A DNA stretch of 22,769 bases. Origin: a virus. The notes below the pieces were generated by a model. The model searched no databases. It was not told the DNA's origin and worked only from the letters and a program-made list of their open reading frames with translations. This document shows, one piece after another, positions 2,507 through 22,343 of the stretch (its first letter is position 1; each line of letters opens with the position of its first letter). The position numbers and the translations under genes were made by a program. The stretch lies in IMG/VR virus record IMGVR_UViG_3300011114_000873, positions 1 through 22,769 of that record, one strand, 5' to 3'.

Positions 2507-5248
2507 TCACGGCTGCTGGTCGCCCGTCAGCGCGTTGATGTTGACGGCGGCCGGCGCAAGTTTGTTGACCGCGCCGACCGTTCTAGTCGTCGCGTCAACG
2601 GCTCGCTGGGTAAGGTTACCCTTGGCAGCTTTCTTCATGGCCTCCGCCAACGCTTTGGAGTCTATCATCGCCAGCGCCAGCCGCTGCGCGAGCCGCGCGT
2701 TTACGTTTTTGGACAACTCGGCGACCGTGTTGTTGATGATAATTTCGGTGCCGATGCCGACCGGGATTTTGACGCTGCGGTATTTCTCCCACAGCGGCAT
2801 CTTGAGCTTGGCGCCGGTTTCGGCCAGCTTCGCCGCCGAAGTCTGGTGATACAGCGCCTCTTTAACCTGGTCTACGATAGCCTTGGCCGCCGGCACGTCG
2901 GCCACGATGTCGGCCACCGTTTCTTTTTCGGGCACGTTCAGTTTCTTCCGAAGCGCCGAAATGTCCGCATTGACGGTTTCCAAGTCGCTGACCGCCGCTT
3001 TAGCGGCTTGCTCTCTGCGCACCACTTCGCGCGTCGCCTCCTCTACGTCGCTCGCCAGCGCGCCACGGTTTTGCGCCGCCGCCGCATCGCGCGCGGCAAT
3101 GTCCGCTTCTACCTCGGTCACCGTTTTGCGAACGCCGGGCATTCCGCCTTCAATTTGCGGGATGGGGCCTTGCGGCGTGGGGCCAAGTTTGTTCTGCAAT
3201 TTCTGAATCTGCGCCGTCGTTTCAGAAATGTCCGCTGCCATGCGCGGATAGACTGTAGCGGGCAGCGTGCGAAGGTTGATATTGGTGAAGTCAACGCCGG
3301 CGCCTTTCAGAATCCGCATGTTGTCTTCGTACCGGGACATAAACTTGGCATGCGCAGCGGGGTCAATCACGTTGTTCTTGACCACTTGCCTGCGGTAGAA
3401 GTTTTCAATCGCTAGCTGTAGCTGGGCCTTGGCCGCCGGATTATCGGCCACCATCCGCGCCATCTGTTGCGTCGCGTCAAGGCTATTGCTGTTAAAGAAC
3501 GTGGATACGATTTTGGCGGGCTCGATATTCCCCGTCAGCAGCGCGCGGGATTCGTCGCCGGATTTGTACACGTCGCCGATCAAAGTCTTGTACGCCACTC
3601 GCGCATCGTCCGCCGCTTTTATCGCATCCGGCGGGAACGTCGTGCTATTGCCGATGACGCCGTCAATCGCTTCCTGCATTTTCGCCAACGCCGCAAGTTT
3701 AGTTGCTTGCGCTGGGTCGCCCGAAGCGCGGATGGTTCGGGCGTAATCGGCGTTCAACGCTTTACGAAGGTCAATCAGGTCATCCATCGCCGCCATCGGC
3801 GCTTCAAAAGTGGTTGACCGCCCTGTCAGGCCCATAGGCCCCGTGCCGGTGGTGGTGGCCTTGCCTCGGAACCGATTCAGAATTGCGGCCGTGGCGGCAG
3901 GAAGCATATCCGGCGAGAACTTGGCAAGCGGCGTGCCCATAGCCTGCGCCGCGACGTTGAAGATTTCGCTGGCGTCGGTTTTGATTCCTGCCGCCAGGGT
4001 GCGCGCCGAGTCGTACAGCGGGTCAACCTTGGCTTTGGTCACGCTGGTTTTCCGTTTGTCGATCATGTCAGTCAGCACCTGGCCTTGAAGTTCTGGCGCC
4101 GTTTTGGGCAGCGTCCCGGCCTCAGCCATTCGCGTCTGGTCTAGTTCGGACGAAAGTCGGCCTGCGGCCTGCTTGGCGCCCTCAAGCTGAAGCAGCATGT
4201 TCGGCGACGGCGGAACTTGCCCGCCTGCCGCTGCGGCTCTTTTTGTGTCGTCTAGCACATTTTGCGCAAGATTTACCGACCAGTCTGACATCGCGTTGAC
4301 GCTGCCAATTTCCTGATTGACCGCCGACTGGGCGCCGGCCAATTGATTGGCTTGCGCGCGCCGTTGAGCGGTGGCTGGGTCTTGGAAGAACTTTTTCTGA
4401 ATAGCCTCGCCGCCCATAAACTCGGCTTCCCGCGCAGCCCAAGCCAGCGTCGGTAAGTCCATTTCGGTGGCGATTTGCTCGATAGACTGCCCCGCCTCCG
4501 CGCGTGTGGCGATTTCGTTCATCCGGTCGGGGCTAATGCGCGGGCGACCGCTACGGTCAAGGACGTCGTTGTATAGCCCAATTTCGCGGAGCGCCCGATT
4601 AAATACGGCTGTTTCCCCGCCGGGGACGATGTACGGCTCCGCAAACCGATACGCGCCGCCGATTACGGGGTTGACCAGCGCAGCGGCGGGGCGCAATGGG
4701 TCGGTGAACCTCCCCGCCGTAGACAGCGCCGTGCCGGCTTTCGCAAGTTTCCCCGCCGCGCCTGTTGCCCCTGCGGCGCGTGTGGTGGCTGCTGCTGCGT
4801 TTACGCCGCCGGCGCCAAGGGTTAGCACCGAGGACACGTCGGCTATCGCGCCGACCGGGTCTGTCTGCACGGTCTTGATGAAGTTGTCCCACCCGCCATA
4901 CCTGTCGCGGTACATAGAGTTTAGACTTTTTGCAAGCTGAACCGCCTGCTGTTTTTCCGGCTGTTCTTTGTAGTCCAGCCCGGTAGCCAGCAACGCTTCG
5001 CCCTGGGCTAACCGGCCGATCATGGTGGCCGTGTCCACAGGGTTAAGAACCATGTCAACCAAGCTGCCGTAGAAATTGACGGCGCTAGATGGCACGTTAC
5101 TAGCCGTTGTCTTTACGCCCTGCCATATGTCGCCCAGCATAGACTGCTGGGGCCGCTCGACTATCGGCGCCGATTCCCACGCCGCCGCGCTTGTGGAAGG
5201 CGCGGGGCTTTTCTCAACTATCGGTGCTGATTCCCACGCGGCAGGCAT
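2507..5248 (-). CDS. large internal virion / DNA-ejection protein, P22 gp16-position (913 aa)
   Basis: This is the largest gene of the window, third of three ejection-type genes and in the place of P22 gene 16. ATG at 5248 overlaps the previous stop (TAATG) with GGAGG upstream. The N-terminus carries a 19-residue tandem repeat holding AAWESAPIVE twice (residues 3-12 and 22-31), a style of N-terminal peptide I associate with phage internal and polyvalent proteins. Residues about 100-200 are Ala/Gly-rich and weakly hydrophobic (SVLTLGAGGVNAAAATTRAA), suitable for membrane interaction; the middle is helical and Ala/Gln-rich; about 670-800 is charged and coiled-coil-like (EEATREVVRREQAAKAAV). The C-terminus is Ala/Asn-rich. 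No enzyme motif was recognised, and no lytic transglycosylase signature is evident. Role as a protein ejected with the genome is inferred from position and composition. Confidence 0.7.
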   Translation of the reverse strand: MPAAWESAPIVEKSPAPSTSAAAWESAPIVERPQQSMLGDIWQGVKTTASNVPSSAVNFYGSLVDMVLNPVDTATMIGRLAQGEALLATGLDYKEQPEKQQAVQLAKSLNSMYRDRYGGWDNFIKTVQTDPVGAIADVSSVLTLGAGGVNAAAATTRAAGATGAAGKLAKAGTALSTAGRFTDPLRPAAALVNPVIGGAYRFAEPYIVPGGETAVFNRALREIGLYNDVLDRSGRPRISPDRMNEIATRAEAGQSIEQIATEMDLPTLAWAAREAEFMGGEAIQKKFFQDPATAQRRAQANQLAGAQSAVNQEIGSVNAMSDWSVNLAQNVLDDTKRAAAAGGQVPPSPNMLLQLEGAKQAAGRLSSELDQTRMAEAGTLPKTAPELQGQVLTDMIDKRKTSVTKAKVDPLYDSARTLAAGIKTDASEIFNVAAQAMGTPLAKFSPDMLPAATAAILNRFRGKATTTGTGPMGLTGRSTTFEAPMAAMDDLIDLRKALNADYARTIRASGDPAQATKLAALAKMQEAIDGVIGNSTTFPPDAIKAADDARVAYKTLIGDVYKSGDESRALLTGNIEPAKIVSTFFNSNSLDATQQMARMVADNPAAKAQLQLAIENFYRRQVVKNNVIDPAAHAKFMSRYEDNMRILKGAGVDFTNINLRTLPATVYPRMAADISETTAQIQKLQNKLGPTPQGPIPQIEGGMPGVRKTVTEVEADIAARDAAAAQNRGALASDVEEATREVVRREQAAKAAVSDLETVNADISALRKKLNVPEKETVADIVADVPAAKAIVDQVKEALYHQTSAAKLAETGAKLKMPLWEKYRSVKIPVGIGTEIIINNTVAELSKNVNARLAQRLALAMIDSKALAEAMKKAAKGNLTQRAVDATTRTVGAVNKLAPAAVNINALTGDQQP
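5156..5242 (-). repeat. 57-bp-period coding repeat (AAWESAPIVE units)
   Basis: The 30-bp units at 5213-5242 and 5156-5185 agree at 26 of 30 positions and encode the same ten residues in frame at the start of the 913-aa ejection protein. The differences are single-base substitutions, so this is a duplicated unit that has drifted under protein-level conservation. Confidence 0.85.
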
Positions 5249-6477
5249 TACGGTTTCCTCCGCTCAATGCCGTTTGGGTCTATAAACGTAGCGCCCGACG
5301 GGAGCGCGTGAAACTCTTCGTCGTTAGTGACGCGGGGAATCGTTGTGGTAGCGGGCGCGGGTTCTGAAGGCGCAGCAACGGAGCCGCCCGCGCGGGACGG
5401 AAGTTTGATGTACGGATAAAACGGAAACTTAACGCCTCTTTCTTCAGAGCTTTTTACATCTTCGTTGTACAGATCAACCTGTTTGTAGGTGGCGTCAATA
5501 AACGTATCCAGAATGGCGGGGAGCGCCTTGGGGTCGGTGCTTAAGCTACCGATAGCAGTTCGCAATGCCTCCTGCTGGCGTTCAGTCGGGTTCGGATCCA
5601 TCTTTTTAAGGTTATCCAAGATACCGCGAAACAGACGCGATTCTAGCTCACTGGCGTCCCTCACTCCCTCAACATTGATGTCCGTTCCTAATCGATTGTT
5701 GAGGAAAGAGGCTACGTTCTTAAATGAAGTCCCGCCAGGGCCCATAAAGTCCTTGGCGTTGGTAGTCAACGCTATGCGTTTTGCGGCTTCCAGATTTTCA
5801 ATCTGCACTGGCGCATTTCTCAAGATCTTTCTAGTTTCAGCGATGTCCGCCATAAAACTTTTAGCCGCTTGAGTCTCTGCGGTGTCGGAACTATTGATCT
5901 CAACCCTAGTCCCCGGCGCGCGGGTCTGCTCGTAGGCAATCTGCCTGTTGACCTCATCCAGTTTGATAGAGTACATCGGGTCGGTTCGGTCAAGACGGTC
6001 GCGCAACTGCTGAAGCTGGCCCAGCGTAGTCGGCGATTTGTTCATATTCATCTCAACTTCAGGCGTGTACCCGCCAGTCAGCCGCCAACGCAACTTTTGG
6101 ATGTTTTCCGGAGACGTTAGGTTGCTGCGGATCATCTCAACGTGCTGCGGGGTCAAGTCGCCCAAAAAAGGTTTGATGTCTGGGTCTTGCAGTCCACGCT
6201 GCAAAGTCCCAATCAACAAATCAGAATTGTCCCCCGCGACGTTCACTGCCTGCTGGAATTGCTTCCACTTGGTGTCTGCTACCGCTCTGCGTTCCGTAGC
6301 CTGACTGGCGGCGACGTCCTGCTGATACTTCTGCGCCTGCAACTGATTGGCCTGCATCTCATTCTGCAAGCCTTGAATCTTCATGATGGCGCCAAGCTGG
6401 TTCATCCCGGCGTTCGGGTCGGGCTGCGGCATCGAGATGGGCGTCAGCCCACGAACGAGAACTGGATCTAATGGCAT
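5248..6477 (-). CDS. internal virion / DNA-ejection protein, P22 gp20-position (409 aa)
   Basis: ATG at 6477 is preferred over a GTG at 6495 because GGGAGGG lies about 9 nt upstream of it and the GTG would sit inside the preceding gene. The N-terminal 60 residues are Gln/Ala/Met-rich and helical (MNQLGAIMKIQGLQNEMQAN); residues 45-330 are soluble and helical; the end is Pro/Ala-rich followed by DEEFHALPSGATFIDPNG, a C-terminal signature I recall from phage injection proteins of this type. There are no membrane spans or catalytic motifs. Sitting between the gp7-like and gp16-like genes, it probably forms part of the ejected protein set that carries DNA across the envelope. The exact equivalence to gp20 is positional inference. 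Confidence 0.68.
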   Translation of the reverse strand: MPLDPVLVRGLTPISMPQPDPNAGMNQLGAIMKIQGLQNEMQANQLQAQKYQQDVAASQATERRAVADTKWKQFQQAVNVAGDNSDLLIGTLQRGLQDPDIKPFLGDLTPQHVEMIRSNLTSPENIQKLRWRLTGGYTPEVEMNMNKSPTTLGQLQQLRDRLDRTDPMYSIKLDEVNRQIAYEQTRAPGTRVEINSSDTAETQAAKSFMADIAETRKILRNAPVQIENLEAAKRIALTTNAKDFMGPGGTSFKNVASFLNNRLGTDINVEGVRDASELESRLFRGILDNLKKMDPNPTERQQEALRTAIGSLSTDPKALPAILDTFIDATYKQVDLYNEDVKSSEERGVKFPFYPYIKLPSRAGGSVAAPSEPAPATTTIPRVTNDEEFHALPSGATFIDPNGIERRKP

Positions 6478-6478
6478 G

Positions 6479-8233
6479 TTAGGCAGCCCTCCCACCGGCG
6501 TTCCGAATCAGCGCGTTGATGTAGTCCCGCTGCAGCTGCTGGTCTTGAGTCGTGCCGCGCGACAAGGCGCTGTTAATCGCCTTGTTCCAGCCCTCCTGCG
6601 CGCCCAGGTAGCCCGACGCCCTCGCGTCCGCCGCCCCAGTCACACCAGCAATCTGCGCCTGCCCGCTTGCGCCCATTGCGTTGCTGACGTTGGTGCCCAT
6701 GTTCTGGCCCGCCTGCGACAGCGTGTTGGTCGCGGTCTGCCCGGTGCCGGCGATAGCCTGCAACGGGTTGAGCAGGTTCGTGCGGTTGGTCTGGAAGCGG
6801 TTGAATGCGTTCAGGTACTCCTGAGACGCCAAATCCTGCCCATACCGTTGAGCGGCCTTGAGCGCGGGGCCAGAGATGAGCCCGCCGCGCGCCGCAGCCT
6901 GACGGTCAAGCGCCTTCATGCCCTCCGACATGCGGAACGCATAGCCGGGGTCGGCCTGAAAGTCGGACATCGAGAAATTGCGCGACAGCGAACCGTACCC
7001 TGGCGCGTTGCGGTTGCTACTCAGCCCCAACAAGTCCTGCATCCGGTTCAGCGCGTTGACGCCGCCCTGCCGGAATGGTTCGTTTAGCGCGGTCTGCTGG
7101 GCGAAGATGTCACGCGCCAACTCCATCTGCTGGTTGGCGGTCTGCGAGCCGATGTTCGCCGCGTTCTGCGCGGCGTTGGCCTGCATCTTGGCGGCGTTCT
7201 CGACGGCGTTGGCGTTCCGCATACCGGAGACGATGTCGATGCCCGCGCGGAGCAAATCCCCCTTGGATATGCCCCAGTCCTCCATTAAATCCGGAAACCA
7301 GCCCATGTTATTGCCTCCCGGGCCTGCGCCCGCCGTGCTAGTTGCCCCGGCCCGGCCGGGATTGTTCATTGCGCCTATAGTACCAGCCGCGCGAGCGGCG
7401 TTCGACATCCCTGCGACGCCGCCCGGCAACCGCCCCGCGACCGCTGAGTTCTGGAACGCGCGCGGAAACAGCGACGCGGTGTTAAGGTTAGTCAGCGTAG
7501 ATTCCGCCGCCCCGCCGGGGAAATAACTGGCAAACTCCGCGCTGCCCATCTCCGGGCCGTACTTCAGATAGTTCAGCGCGTTGCTGGGGGCGTTCATGAT
7601 CGACGACCCAAGGTTCCGCGCGTAGTTTGCCCAGCCGCCGGCGGCGTTGACGCCGGCCTGCAAACTGGCGCCGCTCATGCCGCCCAGATAGCCGCCGCCT
7701 GCACTCAGCGCGATGTCCCAGAAATCGCCGCCTTCGCCGGCTGTGCGACCGCCCATATATGCCGCCGACAACGCCGGGTTGATAAACCCAAGCCCGGTGG
7801 CGATGATAGGGTCCAAAATCGTCATGATATCGAAGTCGCGCGGCGGCAGGGCGTTCTGCGCCTGATAGTTCCGCGCCGTCATGTCGAACAGCTTATGCAC
7901 CGGCACGCCGGGGTTCTGCGCCATCAGCGTCCGCAGGCCGGGCTGACGGGCGTCGTCGCGGCCGTACTCTGCCTCGCTGAACGCCCGGTTGTAGCCCGGC
8001 TGGCCTTTGCGGTTGTTCGGGTTGGCGCTGTATCGCTTCAACCAGGCAATCGTGTCCTGCTCGACAGTGGGCGAGCTTGGGTCGATCCCGCGAGCCCACA
8101 ACCCCGCGCCCTCGGACGTCGCGAACCGCTTGACGTCCTCATCGTGATGAAACCCACCGGACATGCCAAAGCGAACCTTCACGCCGTTGAAGACGCGAAC
8201 ATCCCCCTTCTTTGGCCGGCGGTAGGTGCTCAC
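6479..8233 (-). CDS. DNA transfer / ejection protein, P22 gp7-like (584 aa)
   Basis: A GTG start overlaps the stop of the 41-aa gene (GTGA). The N-terminal about 140 residues are polar; about 145-215 is Gly/Ala-rich and hydrophobic (IIATGLGFINPALSAAYMGG); the C-terminal half carries the pattern of phage DNA-transfer proteins: FRQGGVNALNRMQDLLGL, then DFQADPGYAFRMSEGMKAL, AAARGGLISGPALKAAQRYG and the Ala/Gln/Thr-rich tail GTGQTATNTLSQAG. From knowledge of the family, these pre-ejection proteins sit in the capsid near the portal and form a conduit in the cell envelope. It is followed by two more ejection genes, as in P22. No protease or muramidase motif was seen. Confidence 0.75.
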   Translation of the reverse strand: MSTYRRPKKGDVRVFNGVKVRFGMSGGFHHDEDVKRFATSEGAGLWARGIDPSSPTVEQDTIAWLKRYSANPNNRKGQPGYNRAFSEAEYGRDDARQPGLRTLMAQNPGVPVHKLFDMTARNYQAQNALPPRDFDIMTILDPIIATGLGFINPALSAAYMGGRTAGEGGDFWDIALSAGGGYLGGMSGASLQAGVNAAGGWANYARNLGSSIMNAPSNALNYLKYGPEMGSAEFASYFPGGAAESTLTNLNTASLFPRAFQNSAVAGRLPGGVAGMSNAARAAGTIGAMNNPGRAGATSTAGAGPGGNNMGWFPDLMEDWGISKGDLLRAGIDIVSGMRNANAVENAAKMQANAAQNAANIGSQTANQQMELARDIFAQQTALNEPFRQGGVNALNRMQDLLGLSSNRNAPGYGSLSRNFSMSDFQADPGYAFRMSEGMKALDRQAAARGGLISGPALKAAQRYGQDLASQEYLNAFNRFQTNRTNLLNPLQAIAGTGQTATNTLSQAGQNMGTNVSNAMGASGQAQIAGVTGAADARASGYLGAQEGWNKAINSALSRGTTQDQQLQRDYINALIRNAGGRAA

Positions 8234-14371: not shown

Positions 14372-15118
14372 TTAGCGGTACTTTGCCTCCGCCTTTTTCA
14401 TCTGCCGTTGCCGCTCAGCTTCAATCCACTCCGACGTACTCATGCTCTTGATGGAGCGCGGATCCGTCGTATCAAATACCGGCGTCGTGCCCACTCGGGG
14501 CTTGACAGGCGAAATAGGTTCGGGCGCTTTTGACACCTGTTTCGTCATCGGCTCGGTGGTCAACTTGACCTCCAGCCGTCCAATCTCTTTTGCCTGCAAG
14601 AACGGCGACAACCGGGAGATACGATCTGCCTCTTTGGGGTTTGCCCCCAGATAGTAGGCCAAGTCCGGCCCAATATCAGACGCCTGAATCGTTTCGGCCA
14701 TCACGTTCGTGATCGGAAGATTCGGGTTGTACGCGACTTGTTCAAAGTCATCGTACTTCGACCTGGCTTCTTCCTCACGGTCGTGATAAGCCTCCAGCAT
14801 CTCAGCCTGCTTGGCGCTGGCTTCCCGCGTCCGAATCAGTTCTTCCGCCTTGCGGGCGGCCAGCGCGTCGGCATACGCCTCTACGCTCTCAAACTGATCT
14901 GCCGGCGGTAGCTCAACAGGCGCCTTTACCGGCTGCTGTTGCTGCTGACGCTCCCACTTACGCTGCTCTCTTGCGAGCCTCTTGCTGACAATCGCGTCAA
15001 GTTCTTCCTGTGTGAAAGTCTTGGACGTTTCAGCATCCGGCGAAACTTCAGGTTCAGGCGCCGCCGTAGCCACCTGTTCCGGCGCGGAGGTGTCCGCTAA
15101 CAGTTCTTCATCAGACAT
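14372..15118 (-). CDS. scaffolding protein (248 aa)
   Basis: ATG at 15118 is chosen because GGAG lies 6 nt upstream; a TTG four codons earlier would overlap that site. The protein is highly charged and helical with an acidic, Pro/Ala-rich start (VATAAPEPEVSPDAETSKTF), a coil (VSKRLAREQRKWERQQQQQP), a second coil (EELIRTREASAKQAEMLEAY) and a basic C-terminal helix (WIEAERQRQMKKAEAKYR). A basic C-terminal coat-binding helix is what P22 scaffold uses. Its place directly before the coat gene and the lack of enzyme motifs support scaffolding; sequence similarity to P22 gp8 is not obvious, so the call rests on composition and position. Confidence 0.78.
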   Translation of the reverse strand: MSDEELLADTSAPEQVATAAPEPEVSPDAETSKTFTQEELDAIVSKRLAREQRKWERQQQQQPVKAPVELPPADQFESVEAYADALAARKAEELIRTREASAKQAEMLEAYHDREEEARSKYDDFEQVAYNPNLPITNVMAETIQASDIGPDLAYYLGANPKEADRISRLSPFLQAKEIGRLEVKLTTEPMTKQVSKAPEPISPVKPRVGTTPVFDTTDPRSIKSMSTSEWIEAERQRQMKKAEAKYR

Positions 15119-15517: not shown

Positions 15518-15880
15518 TCATGACAAAAACCGTAACTTGTATAGCGTTGACAGGTACAGTTCGATGATCCCATCAATCAGGTTCTGCAACGGCGTGTCTG
15601 TCTTCGGGCACACCTCGTAGCGCATGGACTCGATGGCTTCCAGCTGGTCTTCCAGAAACTCAACCACGTTGCTGGTCTTCTTCGCGCCCTGCAACGAAAT
15701 CGGCCCGATCAGACCGTGCCGCCCCTGGTACGCCTCGGCAAACCCGTCCGCCAGGTCAATGATGCCTTCGTAGAACTCCTGCAACGCCTTGTGTTTGGCG
15801 TAGCTGCGGGTGTTCAAATGCACGCTATGCGTTACGTCGCGGGCCAAAAACAGCATCCCAACTAATTCGGCGCACTTCAT
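15518..15880 (-). CDS. Dps/ferritin-like four-helix protein (120 aa)
   Basis: The ATG overlaps the portal stop (ATGA). Four helices can be read: about 1-25, 28-53, 70-89 and 97-118. The first two carry H18, H30, D45 and E49, with spacing 12, 15 and 4, matching the H51, H63, D78 and E82 ferroxidase ligands of E. coli Dps; Q34 replaces Dps D67. The stretch HLNTRSYAKHKALQEFYEGI followed by IDLADGFAEAYQG strongly recalls the Dps pattern HWN.RG..F...H......Y......D..AER. Phage proteins of this sort fall, I believe, in an uncharacterised family (DUF5856). Iron binding or DNA protection is inference; the protein is shorter than Dps (about 160 aa) and may lack full activity. Its place between portal and scaffold is unlike P22. 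Confidence 0.68.
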   Translation of the reverse strand: MKCAELVGMLFLARDVTHSVHLNTRSYAKHKALQEFYEGIIDLADGFAEAYQGRHGLIGPISLQGAKKTSNVVEFLEDQLEAIESMRYEVCPKTDTPLQNLIDGIIELYLSTLYKLRFLS

Positions 15881-18021
15881 TGCATTGGCTCCTGCATCGG
15901 CATTTCACCCGGAAGTTCTTGTGGCGGCATCTCAGGCATCCCGCCGGCCTGCGGCGCAAGGTCGCCGGACTCCATCATGCCGTGGATGGTGCCCAGCACG
16001 ACGTCTTGCACCTGATCTGGCGTCATCCCGGCCATCGTCGCCGAGATCCGCTTCGTTTCGGCGTCATACGCTTTAATCTTCAGCTCCTGCGCTTCCATCG
16101 ACTGCGCTACGCCTTGAAGCATCTGGTGCATTTGCTCCATCTCTTGCCCCATCGCCGCCATCTGCTGCTCGGCTTGCATCAAAGCCGGCGTCTTGTCGTC
16201 ATCCGACAGCAGTTTTGGATCAATCGTTTTCGCAAACCGCGCCGACATTTCCTGCGCACCCGGCCAGTCCATGTTCTTGATGAACAAATCGCCGGCTACC
16301 GCCCAAAGTTGCGGGTTGCCCTGCAAAATTTGGCTCATCGCGTCCATTGCTTCCTGACGCTTGGTCATGTAGCTCGGGCCCGTGGTGACGCACACGTCGT
16401 ACTTTCCGACGCCGGGGTTGTAAATCTTCTCGATTACGTTCCCCATGTCGTCTTCCATGCGGCGAACAGGCTCTGGCTGCGTCGGGTCAATCTTGACGGC
16501 CTTCACATCGCCGTCCAGCCCGACAATCCGCGCAATTCGCTGCGTGTCGTAGATTTTCGGCACCAAATCCACAATCTGCCGAGTAATATACCGCACGGCA
16601 CGCGCCAGGTTATCCACATAGTGGTACGTTCCGGTGTCGCCCTGCTTCTCTCGCGCCAAAATAGCCCGGCCAGACCGCTCATTGCTGGTCGCGCCCAGGC
16701 TTGAATCGTATTGCCCGGTGGTCGATTTGATGTCGTCCGACGCGCCCATCTTGGCCTGAATCAGCCCGGTCTGCGCCAACGGCGGGGCGGCGCGCTGCGG
16801 CAGCGGCAATACCGACCCCTGACCGTCCGTTACGTCCGGGTTGACTTCCAAATACGGCCAGTTGTTGACGTTGGCCGTTTTCCACTGCGATTCGTAGCCT
16901 TCAAACTGCCCGCCGTAGCCAATAAACGGGGCTTTCGGCGCCAACGCCAGCATTTCCGCTTCCTGACTGACCCAGTAGTTGTACATGCGCTGGGCGTCTT
17001 TAGCGTTGCGGACGATGCCGGACACAAATACCCGGCCGTCCACTTCAAATTCGTTGCCAACTACGCGGACGACCGGAATCCATTTGCCCGCCCAGTCCCG
17101 CTCTTCCAGCACTTCAAAGCCGTTGATGCGGCACCACTTGATTTTGCGGCGCTGCACTTGCCGGCTCTTAATGGGCCGATAGCCCATCGCCTTAACCTGC
17201 GCCATTTCCGGGGCGTCGTCATATAGAACGATGTTTCCCGGGAACATGTGCAACGTGGTTGGCTCGTACTCGGCGTAGAAGTACTCGGCGATGCGCACCG
17301 TATCTTCGTTGATCCACTGGCTCAGCGACTGGTCGCCTACGCCTTGTAGCTCAATGCTAGATAACGGGCGGGCGTCAGGATATTGACGCTCAAATTCTTC
17401 TTTCAGCAGGTCTTCCGTGATGAAGCACCATTCGGCGTCGGCGCCGCACGGGTCTTGAATGGTCGGGTCCATGTACACGCTGAACGAGTTCCGAATCCGC
17501 CCGATCTTGATGTCCTGATCAAACGAATCGTCGTCGCAGTACTCCGTCAACAGCCGGATGTACCCCTCGCCATACGTCACCTGGTTCTCGCACGCCGTGT
17601 CATACGCCACGTCGGCGTCGCTGATGTACTCGATGTGCCGCACCAGCCCGTCAAATATTTCGGCCACCTCAACGTCGGCCTTGTCGTCCGCCGGAATGAC
17701 CTTGCCAGACGGCCGATTCTGCCGCTGGTCGTTGGTGACCTGCTTCACATGCTGCGGCAACTTGTTGATGGTCAGGCACGGCCTAGCGTTGATCGTCTGG
17801 CCCTGCACCGACCCCCGCGTCGCCAATACGTCCGCCGGCCACTGCCATTGGTTGTCCGGCGACCCTGCGGCGAACCGCAGATCATCTATTTCATCTTCGC
17901 GAGATTCAGAATACGCGGCTACCGCCAGCGTCATGCGGTGGCGGGCCTGCGACAGCAGGTCGGACTGGTCGGTTCCGCCGTTTGCTACCGACAGAACGGC
18001 GTTTTTACTTTTTGGCGCCAC
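15877..18021 (-). CDS. portal protein, P22 gp1-like (714 aa)
   Basis: A GTG start lies 17 bp inside the preceding gene with GGTGA close upstream. The N-terminal SQARHRMTLAVAAYSESRED, then INARPCLTINKLPQHVKQVT and NDQRQNRPSGKVIPADD, is a clear P22-type portal signature; further family segments are TYGEGYIRLLTEY, SFSVYMDPTIQDPCGADAEW and NNWPYLEVNPDV. Residues about 611-660 are a Met/Gln-rich coil (MGQEMEQMHQMLQGVAQSM) that probably forms the barrel, and the last 25 residues are Met/Pro/Glu-rich. P22 portal has 725 residues, so size agrees. It would form the dodecameric DNA channel, bind the terminase and later the gp4-like adaptor. Confidence 0.94.
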   Translation of the reverse strand: MAPKSKNAVLSVANGGTDQSDLLSQARHRMTLAVAAYSESREDEIDDLRFAAGSPDNQWQWPADVLATRGSVQGQTINARPCLTINKLPQHVKQVTNDQRQNRPSGKVIPADDKADVEVAEIFDGLVRHIEYISDADVAYDTACENQVTYGEGYIRLLTEYCDDDSFDQDIKIGRIRNSFSVYMDPTIQDPCGADAEWCFITEDLLKEEFERQYPDARPLSSIELQGVGDQSLSQWINEDTVRIAEYFYAEYEPTTLHMFPGNIVLYDDAPEMAQVKAMGYRPIKSRQVQRRKIKWCRINGFEVLEERDWAGKWIPVVRVVGNEFEVDGRVFVSGIVRNAKDAQRMYNYWVSQEAEMLALAPKAPFIGYGGQFEGYESQWKTANVNNWPYLEVNPDVTDGQGSVLPLPQRAAPPLAQTGLIQAKMGASDDIKSTTGQYDSSLGATSNERSGRAILAREKQGDTGTYHYVDNLARAVRYITRQIVDLVPKIYDTQRIARIVGLDGDVKAVKIDPTQPEPVRRMEDDMGNVIEKIYNPGVGKYDVCVTTGPSYMTKRQEAMDAMSQILQGNPQLWAVAGDLFIKNMDWPGAQEMSARFAKTIDPKLLSDDDKTPALMQAEQQMAAMGQEMEQMHQMLQGVAQSMEAQELKIKAYDAETKRISATMAGMTPDQVQDVVLGTIHGMMESGDLAPQAGGMPEMPPQELPGEMPMQEPMQ

Positions 18022-18134: not shown

Positions 18135-18290
18135 TTACTTTCCTTTCGGCTTGGCCGTCTTGGCTGACTGCTTAAACGCCTTGGCGGTGGGCGCGCCTTC
18201 CGCGCCGGGCTTCCGCATCTTCTCGCCGCTACCCGCTTTGATGCGCTCGCGCTTGGCGTTGATGTTGGCATATAGCCCGGGTTTGCTCAT
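18135..18290 (-). CDS. basic microprotein (51 aa), LYANI/KAGSGEKMRKPG type
   Basis: The ATG overlaps the stop of the 85-aa gene (ATGA). The product reads MSKPGLYANINAKRERIKAG, then SGEKMRKPGAEGAPTAKAFK and a Lys/Ala tail; 14 of 51 residues are Lys/Arg. The motif LYANI.AKRERI..GSGEKMRKPG is one I recall from many phages, where it is uncharacterised. It is second of three consecutive basic microproteins between terminase and portal. Too short for the usual gene-finder cut-offs, but the in-frame coupling and recognisable motif support it. Confidence 0.8.
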   Translation of the reverse strand: MSKPGLYANINAKRERIKAGSGEKMRKPGAEGAPTAKAFKQSAKTAKPKGK

Positions 18291-18544
18291 GGGCACTTCC
18301 ATCTCCTGAGCGACGCCTTAGCTCGCTCGCCATCTTTTGCCTTAGCCGCTACCGCACCCATACGCGCGCAGAAACTCGCCTTGCGGCCCTTGTCCGCTTC
18401 CGTCTTGGGGCTCGGCGCCGGCGCCTTCAACTTGCTGCCCGTCTCGCGGTTGTACTTTTCCCGCCCCTTGGCGGTCAGGCCAGCGCCCTTGCTGGCCGGC
18501 AGCTTCTCGCCGCGCCCCACACTAAGCGAGACGCTCTTTTTCAC
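18287..18544 (-). CDS. basic small protein (85 aa), probably DUF6321-type
   Basis: A GTG start overlaps the previous TGA (GTGA). The product contains LPASKGAGLTAKGREKYNRE, TGSKLKAPAP and, near the end, RKASFCARMGAVAAKAKDGE and KASLRRWKC. The GLTAKGREKYNRETGS..KAP and SFCARM...AKASL.RW.C blocks match my memory of the phage family DUF6321; the two conserved cysteines (in FCARM and WKC) may bind metal or form a pair. About a quarter of residues are Lys/Arg. Function is unknown; position before the other basic microproteins and the portal suggests a head-related or DNA-contacting role. Confidence 0.8.
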   Translation of the reverse strand: MKKSVSLSVGRGEKLPASKGAGLTAKGREKYNRETGSKLKAPAPSPKTEADKGRKASFCARMGAVAAKAKDGERAKASLRRWKCP

Positions 18545-18957: not shown

Positions 18958-20478
18958 CTAAGCCCCCATCCAAGAGTTGATGACGCCGGCCTGCGCGACC
19001 ATACGTCGTGGTTTCTCAACGTACTCCCGGTGCGCTACCGGAAAGGCAAACGTCACCGCCAATGCATCCGCCGCGTCTGGACTTGCCAGACCCCGCGCCT
19101 TCATGTCCTTCTTCGACTCCAACTGGATTACCCCGCTGGACGTCGGCTTCACCATCACGCCCGTCAGATCTGACTTGAACCGGCGGTCGTCCGGGATGCT
19201 AGCAGACTTCAGCCAGTCTTTCATAGCCCCCCACAGCTCAGCCCGTTTGTTCAGGTACATGGGCTGTTTGGGCCTCCAGCCGAAGTTGACGCCTTTTACT
19301 ACCTTGTACCGCTGCTCGTGCAACCTGTCCAAGATGCCGTACCCCAGGCCGCCCTCGTCTATCACCGCCAGCACCGGCTTGTACTCTTCAATGGCCTCGA
19401 TGACCCGTCCCACAATCGCCATCGTGTCCTCGCCCTGGTACCGCTTGATGGCCTTCACGTCCCGGCCCTGCCGCACCACGATGACCGTCGAGTCCGCCCC
19501 GCCTCGCGCCGGGTCGATGCCCAATATGATGGGCGCCGTCTCATCGTTGTACCTCGGCCGCGCTACGGCGTCGTTCACCAGCTGCGGCGAGATGAACTGG
19601 TCGTCGCCTTCGCTCGGGAACTCCCCGTACACCTCAACCCGCGCCTGATATGAGTCCGGCCCGTACTCCGCGATGATCTGCTCGTAGACCGCCTTGTCAG
19701 TGTCCTCCACCGTCCGCGCGTCCACCTGCTTCCCTTGCCAGAAGTCCCGCTTGGCGTGGAAACACTCGAAGAAGTACCCCTGATTACGCCGGGGGTTGCT
19801 GAACGCCAGCCAATACCTGTCCAAGATGTTCTCGGTGAAGAACCCCGCGCCTACCGACCAGATGCTGTCCGGGATGCCGCTCGCCTCGTCGAAGATGAGC
19901 ATCATCCCGTCGTGGTTGTGAACGCCCGCGTAACTGTCCGGGTTCTCCTCACTCCACAGCTTTCCTTCCGCCGCCCAGTAGCGCGTGCCCTTCTTCAGAT
20001 CGCGCTCCACAATGTCCGTCAACCATTTGGCGGGCGTCAATTTCGTGGCGCTCGGCTCCCACCAGTGCGAGTTGATGAGCATCGCCGTCCACTTGCTCAA
20101 CTCGCCCCAGGTCACCGACCGCAGCTGCGCTTCGGAGTTAGCGCTCACTACTACCGAAGACCCAATCCGCGTCGTCAACATCCACAAGATGAGCCAACTG
20201 ACCAACGCCGACTTGCCAATGCCGCGACCTGACGCCACGGCCATCCGCAGCGTGTCCATGTCCACCTTGCCCTGGTTCGCCTTGATGTGCGCGGCCAGAT
20301 TCCGCAGCGTCTCGCGCTGCCACTTGCGCGGCCCCCGAAACTTGGCCAGCGGGGTGCCGGGTTGGTTCCACGGGAAACTGAACAAAACGAACGCTTCCGG
20401 GTCGTCCGCTATCTGCGGCGACCATAGCCGGGCCATCAGCGTCTGCTCTTCGTCGGCGGAATAGATCGGTTTTTGCAT
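18958..20478 (-). CDS. terL: terminase large subunit (506 aa)
   Basis: The ATG overlaps the previous stop (TAATG). The ATPase domain has Walker A SGRGIGKS (residues 83-90) and Walker B MLIFDEASG (193-201). The nuclease domain has the RNase H-like acidic residues in GIDPARGGADST (D322), AVIDEGGLGYG (D374) and ASPDAADALAVTFAFP (D468, D471). Length is typical of headful and related terminases. It cuts concatemeric DNA and pumps it through the portal using ATP. The early part (FSFPWNQPGTPLAKFRGPRK) carries the adaptor segment seen before Walker A in this clade. It is separated from the small subunit by the methyltransferase and the 73-aa gene. Confidence 0.97.
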   Translation of the reverse strand: MQKPIYSADEEQTLMARLWSPQIADDPEAFVLFSFPWNQPGTPLAKFRGPRKWQRETLRNLAAHIKANQGKVDMDTLRMAVASGRGIGKSALVSWLILWMLTTRIGSSVVVSANSEAQLRSVTWGELSKWTAMLINSHWWEPSATKLTPAKWLTDIVERDLKKGTRYWAAEGKLWSEENPDSYAGVHNHDGMMLIFDEASGIPDSIWSVGAGFFTENILDRYWLAFSNPRRNQGYFFECFHAKRDFWQGKQVDARTVEDTDKAVYEQIIAEYGPDSYQARVEVYGEFPSEGDDQFISPQLVNDAVARPRYNDETAPIILGIDPARGGADSTVIVVRQGRDVKAIKRYQGEDTMAIVGRVIEAIEEYKPVLAVIDEGGLGYGILDRLHEQRYKVVKGVNFGWRPKQPMYLNKRAELWGAMKDWLKSASIPDDRRFKSDLTGVMVKPTSSGVIQLESKKDMKARGLASPDAADALAVTFAFPVAHREYVEKPRRMVAQAGVINSWMGA

Positions 20479-20699
20479 TATTCCGGCCAGACCACAATCG
20501 GGGTATGCACGCCGGTGTAGGCGCCTTCAATGTTGAAACTTATGTAATCGCAGGCGTCTTCATAGCTGGCGCCGTCCCGCTCCATCAGAATGCCCGCGAT
20601 TTTGTCACCGTCGTACACATACGCTTCGTATTGGCTTCCATCGCGCCAGACATTGGAAATCCCGATCAAAGCCGCGTCAAGGTCGTCTAACTTAATCAT
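20478..20699 (-). CDS. 73-aa phage protein of unknown function
   Basis: The ATG overlaps the methyltransferase stop (ATGA) and the TAA overlaps the large terminase ATG. The product is acidic: MIKLDDLDAALIGISNVWRD, GSQYEAYVYDGDKIAGILME, RDGASYEDACDYISFNIEGA. It has an alpha/beta look and no known motif. A DNA-mimic or terminase-associated role could be imagined from its charge and place, but nothing in the sequence proves it. Coupling on both sides suggests it is produced at similar levels to its neighbours. Confidence 0.7.
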   Translation of the reverse strand: MIKLDDLDAALIGISNVWRDGSQYEAYVYDGDKIAGILMERDGASYEDACDYISFNIEGAYTGVHTPIVVWPE

Positions 20700-21955
20700 C
20701 GCGGGAAGAACTTATCCAATATAGGGTTTACCACATGCTGAGTCATAGCCGGGGCCATTCCATTACCCACGATGGTTTTGGCGAGCCTGCCGCTTTCCGG
20801 CAGCGGGTAGTCGTCAGACAAGCCCATCAGCCTAGCATACGCGCGGGGGTTCAGCGTGTAAGTCGTTCCGTCCGGCATTACGATGCGGTCGGCCCCAAAC
20901 TCTTTTGCGGTAGCTTTTACCGGAAACGACGGTTCGCCTGCGTATGCGTATGGTATCTGGCCTCTGAACCCCGACCCGCCGCCTACAATGACCGGACGGG
21001 TCAGGTTTTCAACGTCTACGCCCTGCGCGGCCAGCCGCTGGCGTTGCCAGGGGGCAAGTGTTGACTTTTTCATTGTCGGCAGCAGGTCTTCTACTGCTGC
21101 CAACCAGTCTGATTTTGGCGCCGCTGCGGCGACCGACGGCGGCGGGAGGTCTTCGCGGCTGGCCCGAAGCATTATTCGCTCCCGGCGGCTGGGTGCGCCT
21201 AGCGCAGCAGCGTCGTGGACGTCGATGTTCCATTTGTACCCAAGTTCATCCAGCTTGTCGGTAATGATTTTTAGGGCCGCTTTGCCCTTGCTCTGATATT
21301 GCGGGACGTTCTCTAGCGTGAACACGCGAGGCTCAATGTCTTGCAGCGCCCGCGAGGTTGCTTGCGCGGTCATAATGTCTAGCGGCGTTTCGCCTACGCC
21401 GCATTTGGCGCCAGAGTAGTTCTTGCACACCGGGCTGGCATGGAGAATATCAACCTGGTCGCGAAACTTTGCGAAATCTATGTTTCGGACGTCGTCGATG
21501 TTGATGTGGTCGCCGTGAACCGATTTGTAGTGCGCCCCTATGTCCGGGTCGAACTCCACCGCCGCCACAGGCTTGACCCGGCCTTTTAGCGCCTGTTCAT
21601 ACGTTCCGCCGCCGGAAAACAGCGTCATCAGCCGTGGCAGTCCTGTCGTCACTGTCCCCGCTCCTGCTTTAGGCCCAAAGGGAATGCCGCCGGTCATGGC
21701 CGCGCCGGCGAAGCCCATGGCGTCCTCGGGCGTGGGCTGCCGGCCCATCAGCGCCTGCCGGGGCATACTGATCGTCGAGTCTATGCCCGCCAGCAGTTTC
21801 GCCAGAATGGCGTTGCCCGTCGCCTGATACCCCGACGCCTGCGGTTGCGGCGCGAACCGGCTGAAGATGGGCGTGACCGGGTAGTTGATGTTGCCGTCCT
21901 CGTCCATCGTCACCATCGCATTCTGCGGTGGTGGTGCCAGCATGTTACGGGGCAT
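20696..21955 (-). CDS. C5-cytosine DNA methyltransferase with virion-protein-like N-terminus (419 aa)
   Basis: ATG at 21955 is preferred over GTG at 21967 because AAGGTGAGG lies just upstream of it. The catalytic part starts near residue 108: motif I LFSGGGTYEQAL (112-123), motif IV ASPVCKNYSGAK with nucleophile C177, motif VI ENV (215-217), motif VIII GAPSRRERI (253-261), a short target-recognition region (about 268-350), motif IX ARLMGLSDDY (374-383) and motif X GNGMAPAMTQHVV (397-409). Motif IV has PVCK where PPCQ is usual; similar variants exist in phage enzymes. Residues 1-105 (MPRNMLAPPPQNAMV; ISMPRQALMGRQPTPEDAMG; FAGAAMTGGIPFGPKAGAG) are not part of any methyltransferase core and look like phage virion/polyvalent proteins. 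It would methylate phage DNA against restriction. The TerS and 73-aa genes overlap it at both ends. Confidence 0.93.
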   Translation of the reverse strand: MPRNMLAPPPQNAMVTMDEDGNINYPVTPIFSRFAPQPQASGYQATGNAILAKLLAGIDSTISMPRQALMGRQPTPEDAMGFAGAAMTGGIPFGPKAGAGTVTTGLPRLMTLFSGGGTYEQALKGRVKPVAAVEFDPDIGAHYKSVHGDHINIDDVRNIDFAKFRDQVDILHASPVCKNYSGAKCGVGETPLDIMTAQATSRALQDIEPRVFTLENVPQYQSKGKAALKIITDKLDELGYKWNIDVHDAAALGAPSRRERIMLRASREDLPPPSVAAAAPKSDWLAAVEDLLPTMKKSTLAPWQRQRLAAQGVDVENLTRPVIVGGGSGFRGQIPYAYAGEPSFPVKATAKEFGADRIVMPDGTTYTLNPRAYARLMGLSDDYPLPESGRLAKTIVGNGMAPAMTQHVVNPILDKFFPR

Positions 21956-22343
21956 GGATGACCTCACCTTCTATGACTCGGGCCTGCGCTTGGGCCAGGG
22001 CGTCGGTTATCGAGATCTGCTGCGCGACGTCAACCTGAACGTGCGTCTTCGCGACCCAGCCGTGCTGGTGCTTCAGAATCTCCAGCGCCGCCTTGGAGTC
22101 GCCCGCGAACGCAGCATCGTGCAATACATTCGACAACGCAATCTCCGCGTCAGCTCGCCCCTTCGCTACCGCCAAGTCAACCAGCGGATCTGCCGACGCT
22201 AACCGCCGGTACTCGGCCGGCAACATCCCGGCCGCTAACGCCAACGAATCGCCCTTCAACCCCCGGTGCGCGGCGGCGTACAACGCTTCTAACCGCGCCT
22301 CGGTCGCGCTGATGTCGCGGATGGTGAGCGGAAGACCTCGCAT
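21945..22343 (-). CDS. terS: terminase small subunit (132 aa)
   Basis: This is the first gene of the late operon. ATG at 22343 has no strong binding site upstream, so with the promoter called here the leader would be only about 24 nt. The N-terminal half (SATEARLEALYAAAHRGLKG, then DSLALAAGMLPAEYRRLASA) looks like a DNA-binding helix-turn-helix; the middle (GRADAEIALSNVLHDAAFAG, DSKAALEILKHQHGWVAKT) is the oligomerisation region typical of small terminases of this kind; the end (ITDALAQAQARVIEGEVI) is a short tail that may contact the large subunit. It recognises the packaging site and starts headful packaging. The stop overlaps the methyltransferase start. Confidence 0.82.
   Translation of the reverse strand: MRGLPLTIRDISATEARLEALYAAAHRGLKGDSLALAAGMLPAEYRRLASADPLVDLAVAKGRADAEIALSNVLHDAAFAGDSKAALEILKHQHGWVAKTHVQVDVAQQISITDALAQAQARVIEGEVIHAP

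Follow-up and report, generated by a model that had tools for sequence, protein, structure and literature searches.

What is a cytosine methyltransferase with a long, unfamiliar N-terminus doing inside a phage packaging module? The question arises from part of the genome of an uncultured P22-like podovirus in IMG/VR, a stretch of 22,769 nucleotides that we call the window. Its minus strand carries TerS, the methyltransferase, a 73-aa frame (ORF73) and TerL, followed by portal, scaffold and coat in the P22 arrangement, and the enzyme gene hence sits among late virion genes in a run of overlapping frames. We propose, at a probability of about two in three, that its product is an injected protein, a cargo bearing a terminal signal in common with the phage's own ejection protein, by which it would be loaded into the capsid and leave it with the DNA.

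By sequence match, with portal, scaffold and coat (P22_CoatProtein, E 4e-44) in P22 order, the window is a P22-like podovirus morphogenesis module (Table 1). After coat come Ad3 and Hc3 connectors and then proteins at the positions of P22 gp7, gp20 and gp16, in the gene order of those ejection proteins, which are known injected proteins of P22-type phage (PMC8402733). TerS is so named for its 27% identity (E 3e-9) to the TerS annotated in phage DSL-LC05. In P22 the terS-terL gap is gene-free. The first-pass annotation had placed the methyltransferase gene between TerS and TerL, which stands; the gene is not directly before TerL, since ORF73 intervenes. It had also described translational coupling, and overlaps are present on both sides, with the cargo ATG inside the end of terS and the cargo stop overlapping the ORF73 start as ATGA. 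ORF73 is acidic (14 D/E, 4 K/R) and co-conserved with the methyltransferase cargo, and in L012 the sole gene of the slot is a 46% relative of it; it is possibly a DNA mimic or a partner. Between portal and scaffold (15518-15880, minus strand) lies a homologue of phrog_858, a "starvation-inducible transcriptional regulator", an odd location for a regulator.

Table 1. Features of the window (positions from its first letter).
Feature	Position	Strand	Basis or remark
TerS (small terminase)	21945..22343	-	stop overlaps cargo start by 11 nt
Cargo gene: N-terminal tag + spacer + C5-cytosine methyltransferase, 419 aa	20696..21955	-	ATG start
N-terminal tag, aa 1-14, MPRNMLAPPPQNAM	21914..21955	-	DNA pattern match 21920-21946; score 27.2 under a matrix derived from ejection-protein C-termini
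Constant spacer, aa ~15-101, common to three cargo types of the subgroup	21653..21913	-	identity at chance level past codon ~101
C5-methyltransferase domain, aa 108-412, Cys177 at motif IV	20720..21634	-	Pfam and M.HhaI alignment
ORF73, 73-aa acidic ORF, same slot	20478..20699	-	phrog_13182
TerL (large terminase)	18958..20478	-	relatives fetched at 76-88% identity
P22-like portal protein	15877..18021	-	Pfam P22_portal, E 2e-174
P22-like scaffolding protein, candidate tag receptor	14372..15118	-	phmmer, 6e-9
Ejection protein, P22 gp7 position	6479..8233	-	phrog_598 "DNA ejection", E 3.4e-32
Protein, P22 gp20 position	5248..6495	-	gene order
Large ejection protein, 913 aa, P22 gene-16 position	2507..5248	-	gene order
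C-terminal motif copy NKLAPAAVNINAL, 6 residues before the end	2528..2566	-	DNA pattern match

By domain score and motifs the cargo protein is a C5-cytosine DNA methyltransferase with, on the same grounds, an intact catalytic core. Pfam DNA_methylase covers residues 110-412 (E 2.5e-30; 106.5 bits against a cut-off of 22), M.HhaI structures align with residues 104-409 (E 2.7e-12), and, of the motifs named in the first-pass annotation, these were found: I (FSGGG, residue 113), IV (PVC, Cys177), VI (ENV, E215-N216-V217), VIII (RRERIM, residue 257) and X (GNG, residue 397), with Cys177, ENV, RRER and GNG lining up with their M.HhaI counterparts. Motif IV reads SPVC, in contrast to the usual PPC/PC of C5 enzymes. 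Pfam and PHROG searches of the protein matched C5-methyltransferase families only, and Pfam found one domain, as opposed to the two or more catalytic or LPD domains of a polyvalent protein. The catalytic fold and motifs are those of bacterial and phage C5-cytosine methyltransferases such as M.HhaI, but none of the matches has the N-terminal extension.

Judged from these matches and its relatives, the extension is not methyltransferase sequence, and its conservation goes far beyond chance. Residues 1-105 matched no family in Pfam or PHROG profile searches and nothing significant among annotated phages (best E 4); for residues 13-105 relatives outside the subgroup were undetectable. Across IMG/VR relatives the roughly 100 residues are 84-94% identical, fused to the same methyltransferase in L002-L004 and, in that same terS-terL position, to two different and unrelated C-terminal parts in L005 and L006. 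Compared in steps of 30 nt, the DNA of the window and of L005 is 83-100% identical as far as codon ~100, and identity is at chance level beyond; the L003/L006 junction falls at codon ~95, and the junctions, all sharp, range overall from codon 95 to 101. As dN/dS is about 0.1 over residues 1-101 (0.08 over residues 1-15) and 0.04 over the enzyme part, both halves of the protein are kept by selection. The view that the extension lies outside the methyltransferase core is borne out by this swapping of C-terminal domains behind it; residues 1-105 did not match methyltransferases only, their N-terminus being shared by unrelated proteins. AlphaFold, given 3 near-identical sequences for the window protein and a single sequence for the L005 cargo, yielded models with a pLDDT of ~35 that were unusable. 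In L002 a second, untagged 111-aa ORF (L002:3751-4086) lies between terS and the methyltransferase cargo.

Within the first 14 residues of the cargo protein lies the motif N-x-L-A-P-x-x-x-N-x-[LMF], which we call the tag. In 80 TerL relatives, fetched at 76-88% identity, terS and terL mostly abut, and roughly one gap in three contains one or two genes. These slot genes are mostly unrelated in body yet alike at the start (MPRNMLAPPPQN, MPTNNLAPKTKN, MPQNALAPTPVN, MANALAPPSRN, MPKNALAPQSDN); exceptions that lack the motif include HNH endonucleases, L037, L059 and L083, and in many relatives the slot is empty. Tagged ORFs near TerL, in related P22-like podoviruses, make up at least 15 families between which no similarity is detectable past residue 30, including methyltransferase, ADP-ribosyltransferase-like, zincin-like and LPD23 types among others. 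LPD23 is found in L192, L183, L107 and L113 (E 1e-12 to 1e-17), with an ART-like segment in addition in L192; ART-PolyVal matches L097 and L059 weakly, and DUF6973 and DUF6321 are further domains of tagged genes. Searched against annotated phages, the L106, L079 and L152 proteins gave one weak match or none, and no annotated relative with virion proteomics. The stretch singled out by the first-pass annotation as a clue, GRQPTPEDAMGFAGAAMTGG, is not the diagnostic part of the extension: in a profile-profile comparison of two cargo families only residues 1-18 align. The residue at +2 after the second Asn, a position outside every search pattern, is L, M or F in 22/22 families. All codon variants are used for the conserved Pro, Ala and Asn and third positions vary freely; the conservation therefore acts at the protein level, and an RNA- or DNA-level element such as a pac site or translation signal is ruled out by the same observation. 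We also rejected the tag as a by-product of overlap with the terS 3' end, since many cargos start clear of terS or downstream of terL.

An IMG/VR-wide scan with the DNA pattern of MPxNxLAPxxxN returned at least the matches listed, and among these most that open a real ORF adjoin a TerL of the same group. With all loci pooled there are at least 85 distinct tagged ORFs, a few of which are chance matches; among the 85 listed, the TerS-TerL interval holds 41, another 23 are downstream of TerL (in most cases by no more than 0.7 kb), 11 are upstream, and 10 come from fragments that have no TerL. A stricter form of the tag gave 12 matches in 257 Gb of prokaryote genomes, about the chance number by our estimate, and no host prophage was found there with the tag pattern.

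The motif occurs exactly twice in the window, and its second copy lies at the other end of a very different protein; TerS, TerL and portal are without it. The 913-aa protein at the gene-16 position ends ...GAVNKLAPAAVNINALTGDQQP, L221-L227 end alike, and the motif closes the large ejection protein of the window and of about 20 relatives. The first-pass annotation had called the extension virion-protein-like, and its first ~14 residues do have a match at the C-terminus of this large ejection protein. By phmmer the 913-aa protein shows no similarity to P22 gp16, and the C-terminus of P22 gp16 is free of the motif, as is the rest of that protein. The bodies of the ejection proteins themselves form several groups without mutually detectable similarity, yet the tail is the same; the long protein with this tail sits just upstream of a small membrane-protein gene. 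Nine pattern matches resembled separate 18-aa ORFs, which we considered as mini-genes and rejected, because they are the last codons of the long protein (e.g., ...EMPANALAPGQPNQNALAR-stop).

The preference for protein ends holds across records. Searched without a start codon, the pattern gave 31 matches against 1 for a reversed-pattern control in 28 long records (ten selected via the tag and two via the N-terminal module), of which 15 are cargo N-termini, 14 lie 4-12 residues from a long-protein C-terminus and 2 fall elsewhere. A further 50 records, selected by TerL only, gave 11 matches against 1 reversed, of which 8 open a cargo, 2 fall at the C-terminus of an ejection protein and 1 is internal. 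Over the 78 records this amounts to 42 matches against 2, with 39/42 at protein termini; seven records have the motif at both an N- and a C-terminus (G000, G001, G009, G014, G018, G020, G067), and variant tails occur in records without an exact match (G004, INNLAPAPAAPANALAR; G010, NALAAESQNNLGK). Inside the long ORFs of the fetched loci the strict form N.LAP...N was never internal. A 9-column matrix built from 18 ejection C-terminal peptides only, when run over the starts of ORFs of at least 110 aa in TerL-selected loci, passes 15/26 slot ORFs against 3/290 others (Fisher 3e-16, uncorrected for relatedness), and shuffled slot N-termini pass at a mean of 0.27/26.

We suggest that a common procapsid docking signal is the simplest account of these data, because the terminal peptide is the sole feature common to the unrelated enzymes and the ejection protein. 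The packaged, injected enzyme proposed in the first-pass annotation gains strong though indirect backing from the sharing of its N-terminus with unrelated proteins, as opposed to methyltransferases, and from the ejection-protein match. The ~14-residue signal would probably bring proteins into the procapsid alongside the ejection proteins, the scaffold being the likeliest route, and would commit its carriers to leave with the DNA, while the phages exchange the effector behind a constant signal. The scaffold is our first candidate for the receptor since P22 ejection proteins enter through it, and indeed need it to enter the procapsid (PMC8402733). P22 gp7 and gp20 are loaded by their N-terminal parts (PMC8402733), and a C-terminal loading signal is therefore without P22 precedent. 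On entry, a C5-cytosine methyltransferase could methylate the phage DNA as it arrives and shield it from restriction by the host, an early methylation that we posit by analogy with the T4 and P1 cargos. Free-standing C5 methyltransferases of other subfamilies, encoded on the strand opposite TerL, occur in relatives that have another cargo (G002, G007), so that methylation itself is common in the group; what the tag would alter is when and where it acts. We lean, with slightly less assurance than toward the cargo assignment itself, to the broader notion of a portable terminal address, usable at either protein end, that belongs to the gene-16-position ejection protein and is borrowed by small effectors rotating around terS/terL; large polyvalent proteins would in effect be unbundled into injected effectors that are each tagged and swapped on their own.

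The closest parallel is the capsid-targeting sequence (CTS) of T4, where a short N-terminal peptide of ~10 residues on the divergent proteins IPI-III and Alt is a portable head-targeting signal and the injected cargo works against restriction or alters host proteins (PMC9026906, PMC9958956). The tagged families, too, have a short N-terminal peptide common to unrelated proteins, and they are presumably destined for the virion. The tag is nonetheless unrelated to the CTS in sequence and belongs to an unrelated phage; unlike the CTS, it also stands at an ejection-protein C-terminus, and nothing points to its being cleaved by a prohead protease; no such protease appeared among the scanned proteins of the window, itself a fragment. 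P1 DarB is a methyltransferase carried in the head, as the present enzyme would be, and its N-terminal packaging signal is longer than 9 and shorter than 30 residues (PMC9024508); the P1 cargos, like those of T4, are injected and fight restriction. DarB, however, is a 250-kDa adenine methylase-helicase and the present enzyme a small C5-cytosine one, and P1 Dar proteins have no consensus N-terminus or common signal, from which the consensus tag of the present cargos, if truly a signal, would set them apart. Polyvalent proteins, predicted to be co-injected effectors (Iyer, Burroughs, Aravind 2017; PMC5512222), share with the tagged relatives the late-gene context, LPD23 and ART-PolyVal. They are single large multidomain chains, with methylases that are mostly adenine methyltransferases, whereas most of the present cargos are short, consist of one effector each and have the terminal tag in common; the open literature searched yielded no paper that links polyvalent proteins to capsid targeting.

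Other interpretations have to be weighed. The protein could be an ordinary late methyltransferase that modifies progeny DNA before packaging, its extension a carry-over from fusion at a recombination hot spot; we regard this as unlikely. It would agree with the complete core under strong purifying selection (dN/dS 0.04), with the free-standing C5 methyltransferases of relatives and with a slot that also accepts untagged genes. The extension, however, is itself conserved and common to non-methyltransferases, carry-over leaves the motif at the ejection-protein C-terminus unexplained, and in G002, G003, G005 and G007 the free-standing enzymes are encoded on the other strand from TerL, those fully read being tagless. 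Methylation in the course of packaging, an earlier idea for this enzyme, gains no support from the present analysis.

Two further readings concern the motif rather than the enzyme. That it marks where a host or phage protease processes proteins near their ends, and is not a targeting signal, we consider improbable, at well under the chances of the late methyltransferase: its place at the extreme termini of both kinds of protein would fit, host OpdA trims the first 20 residues of P22 gp7, and the T4 signal doubles as targeting and cleavage signal (PMC9026906), but trimming a few C-terminal residues has no obvious purpose, P22 gp7 can lose its first 20 residues with little consequence (PMC8402733), and a shared virion fate would be implied anyway. 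Least probable of all is that the motif docks late proteins to a partner outside the virion, for instance a membrane site or the packaging motor, and so brings them together in one place; tagged genes do cluster beside the terminase genes, but the motif's second carrier, an ejection protein, is encoded ~15 kb from them, and neither terminase subunit nor portal carries either of the window's two matches.

To our knowledge, head-loading peptides have been established experimentally in few phages (T4, P1). If the motif is a loading signal, injected effectors of uncultured podoviruses would become recognisable from sequence alone, and families such as L163, L106, L079, L152 and L072 would make up a list of anti-defence candidates. 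It would equally render the P22-type selection of internal proteins by scaffold testable, and supply a short handle with which proteins could be brought into P22-like capsids.

Some minor observations follow. Untagged C5 methyltransferases of other subfamilies are L280, L281 and L282 (records G002, G005 and G007), again opposite TerL. The terS-terL gap holds untagged, free-standing genes that by eye are HNH-type endonucleases (L043:4488-5000, L047:3475-3975, L057:3967-4440, L082:4495-4995), and in two cases such a gene directly follows a tagged cargo; these endonucleases may drive cassette exchange. In another subgroup the slot is taken by an untagged 148-aa protein (LEEANAFVxxHHRHHNPVVGHKFSIAV; L065:4545-4991, L085:1967-2413). 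The small "SFCARM" protein has a tagged version with DUF6321, MPNHLAPKSKNHL (L192:11686-11961, L036:178-453), and the window encodes an SFCARM-like protein without the tag (18287-18544, minus strand). A further cargo swap is seen in L133:2589-3038 and L142:1861-2310, which combine the N-terminal module of the L126 cargo family with the C-terminal domain found in the L152/L104 family.
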